From contig MHDU01000055.1 in the NCBI GenBank assembly GCA_001803635.1, forward strand, positions 1-61,426: DNA of 61,426 nt, read 5' to 3'. Of the stretch, positions 25,595 through 26,058 are shown piece by piece. The position numbers and the translations under genes are program-made. The notes below the pieces were generated by a model, which saw nothing but the letters and a program-made list of their open reading frames with translations, had not been told where the DNA came from and did not search any database. Within the stretch, counting starts at the first letter, position 1. Every line of letters starts with the position of its first letter. The DNA comes from Nitrospirae bacterium GWB2_47_37 (lineage in GTDB: Bacteria > Nitrospirota > Thermodesulfovibrionia > Thermodesulfovibrionales > Dissulfurispiraceae).

Positions 25595-26058
25595 ACCGGT
25601 CCGATCAGGTTTATTATGCTGCGCCCGTATTTCAATACCGCTATATTTGACGCTGCCGCAAACCAGAACAGAACAGCGGCTATAAACATCGCAAATCGTG
25701 CAATACCGGCGGGTAATGACCGATCTTCATTTCCGGGAATGATGAAAAAGAGGACACAAAAAACAGAAGACATTATCGCTATATGCGATACTTCGCCCCA
25801 GTGCTTATAAATATACCGGGCTGCCGGATTGATCTCGATTTCATAGCTGTTGTATTTGCCGAAACAGAGAAAGGTTGTAATATAATCGGCGATTTTTCCT
25901 AAGACAAGAAAAAAAAATAACGGCGGGACTATCGAACGGCTTTTAAGACTTAAATCTGTCTGTCTGTCTGTCTGTCTGTCTGTCTGTCTGTCTGTCTGTC
26001 TGTCTGTCTGTCTGTCTGTGCAAGATTGATGCCATGAAAGAATCCCCCGTAACGCCAA
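25591..26058 (-). CDS. Small membrane protein with a phase-variable 5' end
   Basis: A 155-residue frame with three or four transmembrane helices, begun here at a TTG (26058). The N-terminal part is a DRQT repeat encoded by 16 copies of a tetranucleotide. The C-terminal part (LGKIADYITTFLCFGKYNSYEIEINPAARYIYKHWG...) resembles DUF5658-type small membrane proteins. The only upstream ATG, at 26035, lies in another frame and with 16 copies stops soon after the repeat. Expression is therefore predicted to depend on repeat number. The stop overlaps the pilin-like gene start, so switching could also affect that gene by coupling. Confidence 0.6.
   Translation of the reverse strand: MALRGILSWHQSCTDRQTDRQTDRQTDRQTDRQTDLSLKSRSIVPPLFFFLVLGKIADYITTFLCFGKYNSYEIEINPAARYIYKHWGEVSHIAIMSSVFCVLFFIIPGNEDRSLPAGIARFAMFIAAVLFWFAAASNIAVLKYGRSIINLIGPV
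25955..26018. repeat. Tetranucleotide microsatellite (TCTG)16
   Basis: Sixteen perfect TCTG units (CAGA on the coding strand) at the 5' end of a minus-strand gene. Perfect tetranucleotide tracts of this length are typical of contingency loci that switch by slipped-strand mispairing. Confidence 0.95.

Follow-up and report, generated by a model that had tools for sequence, protein, structure and literature searches.

On the minus strand of the window (the whole 61,426-nucleotide stretch of DNA that was analysed), a tetranucleotide tract lies at the head of a small membrane-protein ORF and a pseudopilin-like gene. The tract occupies positions 25955–26019 and reads (AGAC)16.25 without a mismatch, or TCTG on the plus strand. 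TRF, run on the window, reports (TCTG)16.2 with 100% matches and 0 indels, and a genome-wide repeat scan showed this to be the only (TCTG)5 or longer tract in the entire 2,472,158-base genome. Tandem-repeat detection and ORF reading together confirm the preliminary description of this DNA, which had noted (TCTG)16 at the 5' end of a small membrane-protein gene. Directly 3' of the tract is TTTAAGTCTTAA (25943–25954, minus strand), which stops two frames, leaves the third open, and belongs to a TTANNAG motif common to related loci.

The membrane ORF (25591–25954, minus strand) encodes multiple hydrophobic stretches, and its codon preference is the highest among the six frames and equal to that of the adjacent pilin gene. 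Its score against PF18902 (DUF5658) is 20.2 bits, under the curated Pfam cut-off of 25.2, so we name it DUF5658-like only. Downstream of the tract, the membrane-protein frame offers no ATG, GTG or TTG until ATG 25773, the first start within the ORF. This ATG is inside the domain match, which spans 25663–25896 and begins 5' of it, so translation from there would truncate the domain. The stop codon of the DUF5658-like ORF overlaps the start (ATGA) of a gene for a 699-aa pseudopilin-like protein with Ig/PKD-like repeats (23495–25594, minus strand), and any switch would therefore affect a two-gene cassette. The 699-aa protein contains KGFTLIEIAMVLIIVGLLL (KGFTLIE motif); its N_methyl match (PF07963) reaches 19.0 bits against a cut-off of 21.2, and its PKD/cadherin-like Pfam matches are weak. 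An ATG at 25576, inside the gene, is a possible alternative pilin start.

Together with a PIN-like gene, the pseudopilin gene, the DUF5658-like ORF and the tract make up a variable cassette (22623–26141). Comparison with the same-genus genome G001 places it between a pssA/leuA side (19515–22622) and a p344/dynamin side (26142 onward); G001 holds different genes at this place, so the cassette that carries the candidate switch is variable. The nearest genomes of the family lack the DUF5658-like gene and carry the pilin homologue at another location. No close DUF5658-like relatives were found among the genome contigs searched, and no paper mentioning DUF5658 was found in the literature searched. 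Elsewhere in the window, 6 kb from the tract, a sigma-54-dependent response regulator gene adjoins one for a Cache-domain histidine kinase (16455–19518), and positions 33329–33710 hold approximately 3.7 copies of a 102–105-bp repeat encoding TPR units.

Upstream of the tract on the minus strand, an ATG (26033–26035) opens a leader, M-A-S-I-L-H, that continues into the repeat. A Shine-Dalgarno-like GGGGG (26044–26048) lies 8 nt 5' of this ATG, and the sequence between the start codon and the tract belongs to TGGCATCAATCTTGC (26020–26034), a motif common to related loci. Further upstream is a weak sigma-70-like promoter, TTGCAA-N18-TATAAA (26072–26101; 9/12), which taken alone is not above chance. 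As each of the three frames of (AGAC)n encodes the same (RQTD)n, copy number alters the exit frame only. Once past the tract, 3, 120 and 0 codons can be read in the three frames before a stop; the 120-codon frame is the membrane-protein ORF, and the 3-codon frame is that of ATG 26035 at 16 copies, making the assembled state OFF. In this frame the TAA at 25945–25943 is the fourth codon after the tract, nine bases past it. At 17 copies a TAA is met immediately on leaving the tract, and ATG 26035 is joined to the membrane-protein frame solely at multiples of three copies (12, 15, 18). The preliminary description had the ATG out of frame at 16 copies, with a stop within four codons after the tract, and in frame at 15 or 18, just as we read it. 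It had further suggested that copy number might choose between this ATG and a TTG (26056–26058). The TTG does share the frame at 16 copies, as claimed, but no Shine-Dalgarno site is present in its preceding 18 bases; we judged it not to be a start, and a choice between two starts finds no support. A T9 homopolymer (25909–25917) was considered as a second frameshift site and rejected: it is positioned after the out-of-frame stops, so the OFF frame is not rescued by it.

On balance we lean towards the view that (TCTG)16 acts as the switch in a translational contingency locus, and that this locus is a member of a CAGA-tract family distributed across the Nitrospirota. Counted in favour are the perfect and unique tract, the ATG with its Shine-Dalgarno site, and the position of this ATG as the sole in-frame start before 25773. 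Ribosomes would initiate at ATG 26035 and translate M-A-S-I-L-H and then (Arg-Gln-Thr-Asp)n, and the copy number would determine the frame in which they come out of the repeat. At 3k copies translation would run into the DUF5658-like protein and should couple to the pseudopilin gene that overlaps it. At 3k+1 copies (16, the assembled OFF state) or 3k+2 copies it would end within four codons, with an expected drop in the output of both genes. Copies would be gained or lost by slipped-strand mispairing. The lic-type ON/OFF locus proposed earlier is thus borne out in its anatomy (a start with a Shine-Dalgarno site, a tetranucleotide tract, two early-stop frames and one open frame that leads into a membrane protein); that the repeat is translated, that the two genes are coupled and that cells switch is our inference.

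On paper the locus would work like Haemophilus influenzae lgtC (HI_0258), where a GACA unit after the start codon is present in 8–38 copies among strains (PMC2651432). Shared with lgtC and other lic-type loci are the GACA unit, the placement of the tract just 3' of the start codon and the early out-of-frame stops (PMC2651432), as well as an N-terminal hydrophilic, uncharged tetrapeptide. Unlike them, the window locus is in an uncultured member of the Nitrospirota, precedes DUF5658-like and pseudopilin genes rather than a glycosyltransferase gene, and has its tract within a recurrent motif of sigma-54-like pattern. Neisseria nadA-type repeats, which alter promoter spacing (PMC2791445), also form a tetranucleotide tract 5' of a surface protein gene, whereas the window tract is 3' of the promoter-like motif and the motif's internal spacing is unaffected. 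The novelty lies in the host phylum, in the operon and in the recurring motif at the flanks. To our knowledge, repeat-tract switches of this kind are known almost only from pathogens, and the literature searched yielded no paper linking Thermodesulfovibrio with phase variation.

The preliminary description had regarded such a tract as exceptional for this type of genome. This was overstated: (CAGA)6 or longer tracts are present in 33 of 396 sampled Nitrospirota genomes, chiefly of the same order and class (about 16 in the order). A control repeat of equal composition, (GCAA)6, was found in only 2 of 175 genomes from the order. Approximately 60 tracts were read, about 50 of them with common flanks; since the tract recurs, usually with these flanks, the window tract is part of a recurrent element. 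GG-N10-GC stands immediately 5' of 37 of 48 tracts, mostly as TGGCAT-N5-YTGC, with one occurrence (G380) probably a coincidence. A Shine-Dalgarno site with ATG or GTG lies at most 48 bases upstream in 41 of 50 loci (shuffles: mean 14.3, maximum 21), and a sigma-70 site of at least 10/12 lies about 60–95 nt upstream in 17 of the 50 (1.35 in shuffles); these counts include copies related by descent and are not made up of independent cases. Beyond the tract, TTANNAG is present in 29/51 loci, against 2.8.

Many of the related loci have a GC-rich terminator after the tract, followed by a gene with its own Shine-Dalgarno site. The genes after such terminators include those for lipoproteins, a chemoreceptor, CheW and LamG-type exported proteins, names that beyond Pfam matches are our reading of N-terminal sequences. 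By a crude test, 13 of 20 first downstream genes encode a signal or membrane segment, compared to 39 of 179 control ORFs, and CAGA-tract loci of the Nitrospirota would mostly precede exported or membrane proteins; the genes they adjoin include exported lipoprotein, chemotaxis and pilin-like genes. No copy of the element was found in viral contigs, and matches to its pattern in a member of the Succinivibrionaceae (L170) and one of the Spirochaetaceae (L183) look like chance. We favour the proposal that this type of contingency locus is lineage-wide, with the window copy OFF. A tract family at tens of loci in groundwater and deep-subsurface Nitrospirota would be open to direct testing with existing metagenome reads.

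The motif 5' of the tract also fits a different type of signal, one absent from the preliminary description. At 26034–26020 it has the GG-N10-GC spacing of sigma-54 (RpoN) -24/-12 promoters, with TGGCA and TTGCA. TGGCAT-N5-TTGCA could therefore be a sigma-54 promoter whose real target is the pilin gene; transcription would start in the tract, about 12 nt past the GC, the ATG would be a chance reading of the -24 GG, and copies would alter the 5' UTR and not the frame. We regard this as unlikely, although two facts count against the contingency reading here: the motif is kept where the start codon is absent, and GG-N10-GC does fit sigma-54. Across the family, the 37 of 48 tracts preceded by this spacing show the sigma-54 consensus letters C/T-A following GG and T ahead of GC, and the 15-mer is found without a tract 5' of a flgB gene in one genome and at other promoter-like places. 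The genome encodes RpoN (PF04552, 2.6e-59), a sigma-54 activator gene is located at 16455–17822 of the window, and pilins are often sigma-54 dependent. However, the Shine-Dalgarno site and start codon of the 41/50 loci are just 5' of the motif or across it and overlap it in many copies, and the sigma-70 promoters upstream in 17 of the 50 are strong ones. TGG is preceded by A or G (giving ATG or GTG) in 27 of 37 loci and not by the usual Y, and the GG is broken in G001, G098 and L159. Furthermore, in L145 a match resembling a c-di-GMP riboswitch (53.1 bits, cut-off 59) lies 62 nt upstream of a motif copy, which would therefore be transcribed there. The flgB genes of this order are generally without a preceding GG-N10-GC. 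To gauge sigma-54 sites in the order without bias we also turned to flgB promoters, which proved uninformative, with a good site in only 3 of 30. The L145 match itself, of type c-di-GMP-I-GGC and below the Rfam gathering cut-off, occupies 3111–3190 on the minus strand and is accompanied by a terminator, 62 nt 5' of a CAGA-tract ORF.

A second group of observations bears on whether the tract is translated as part of a longer protein at all. The leaders of G019, G027, G043, G152, L164 and L176 carry, 5' of the motif, a conserved Shine-Dalgarno site and a start-stop mini-ORF, ATG-GGR-TAA; L155 and L173 have lost the ATG or the stop of the mini-ORF but kept the neighbouring letters. Where the start-stop is present, translation from its ATG does not reach the tract. 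Several loci whose flanks are alike carry ATG GGR TAA and then a terminator and a separately started gene, which counts against the contingency reading, and an ordinary read-through ORF is no explanation for these copies. Instead, the tract could be part of a conserved RNA element, untranslated or coding for a leader peptide, that controls the following gene through attenuation; in the window this element would have lost its terminator, and the membrane ORF would be a by-product or a decaying gene. The conserved chain of promoter, ATGGGRTAA, AAGCCTCTGGCATYAATCNTGC, tract, TTANNAG and terminator ahead of genes with their own Shine-Dalgarno sites is as expected from such a leader, as is the excess of TTANNAG. 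We nevertheless find it quite improbable, since the consensus RNA fold (RNAalifold) is limited to a 3-bp stem, a conserved hairpin 3' of the tract was sought and its stem was not above shuffles, no Rfam family matched at the window locus with E up to 1, and in the window no terminator separates the tract from the DUF5658-like ORF.

In a further reading, a portable Nitrospirota leader, made up of promoter, Shine-Dalgarno site, short ORF, CAGA tract, a stop motif that sorts frames, and terminator, would be a phase-variable attenuator or fusion switch, in which copy number would set the exit frame and the exit frame would lead either to an early stop or to read-through past the terminator or into the gene. 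We consider this possible but doubtful. If true, a portable leader before many surface-protein genes would imply genome-wide bet-hedging in subsurface bacteria. Known attenuator, leader-peptide and c-di-GMP riboswitch leaders likewise place a promoter, a short ORF with a Shine-Dalgarno site and a terminator before genes for exported proteins; they differ in that a variable tetranucleotide tract here separates the short ORF from the terminator, no conserved aptamer is seen, and the window copy is without a terminator.

Returning to the translational contingency locus, ORFs continuing from the tract without a clear start of their own are found in the window, G126, G081:C199, G339:C2 and G380. 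The cytochrome-like, CXXCH-type lipoprotein of G126 is in frame with its best-scoring upstream start (ON) and its Shine-Dalgarno site is weak; a sensor kinase in G014 is also in frame (ON), again with a weak site and with an additional ATG without one. The lipoproteins of G081:C199 and G339:C2 are out of frame with their best-scoring upstream starts (OFF). G380:C12 (L126), in a distant member of the phylum, has a Shine-Dalgarno site, ATG, seven CAGA copies and a lipoprotein, without the common motif, and would be OFF at 7 copies. In G394:C25, G330:C35 and G419:C1 (L148, L149 and L097), the tract is in the middle of a TPR and HELVH metallopeptidase-like ORF, and the halves, with frames worked by hand, are out of frame in all three species.

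Across loci, the frame after the tract relative to the start is random (12 open, 14.0 expected), and peptide conservation across the tract was looked for and rejected, frame continuity being no better than random. Random exit frames are expected for switches and equally for an untranslated tract. They also agree with a neutral microsatellite that has grown at a permissive site and has no regulatory role. We hold this to be very unlikely: the CAGA unit, with common flanks, recurs at tens of sites within a single phylum, the tracts are biased to signal-bearing genes, and the control repeat (GCAA)6 is rare. A long (GCAA)n tract in G117:C10 (42686 onward) is a possible further contingency locus in the order.

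Copy number is unequal in 7 of 9 homologous locus pairs, where the members of a pair match in both flanks or are almost identical in one, and represent species or paralogues, not strains. The unequal pairs have 22.25/10.25 (G186), 8.25/9.25 (G027/G001), 8.75/11.5 (G394/G330), 8.25/5.5 (G152/L168, upstream flank only), 8.25/7.0 (G315, downstream flank 99%), 16.25/7.25 (G081) and 6.5/8.25 (G413/G339) copies; G019/G027 and G330/G419 are equal. Among these species or paralogues, the tract varies more rapidly than the flanking sequence. It should also be noted that the two G315 copies, on C14 and C79, are 99% alike over 150 nt 3' of the tract and unlike 5' of it, as if recombined or misassembled there.
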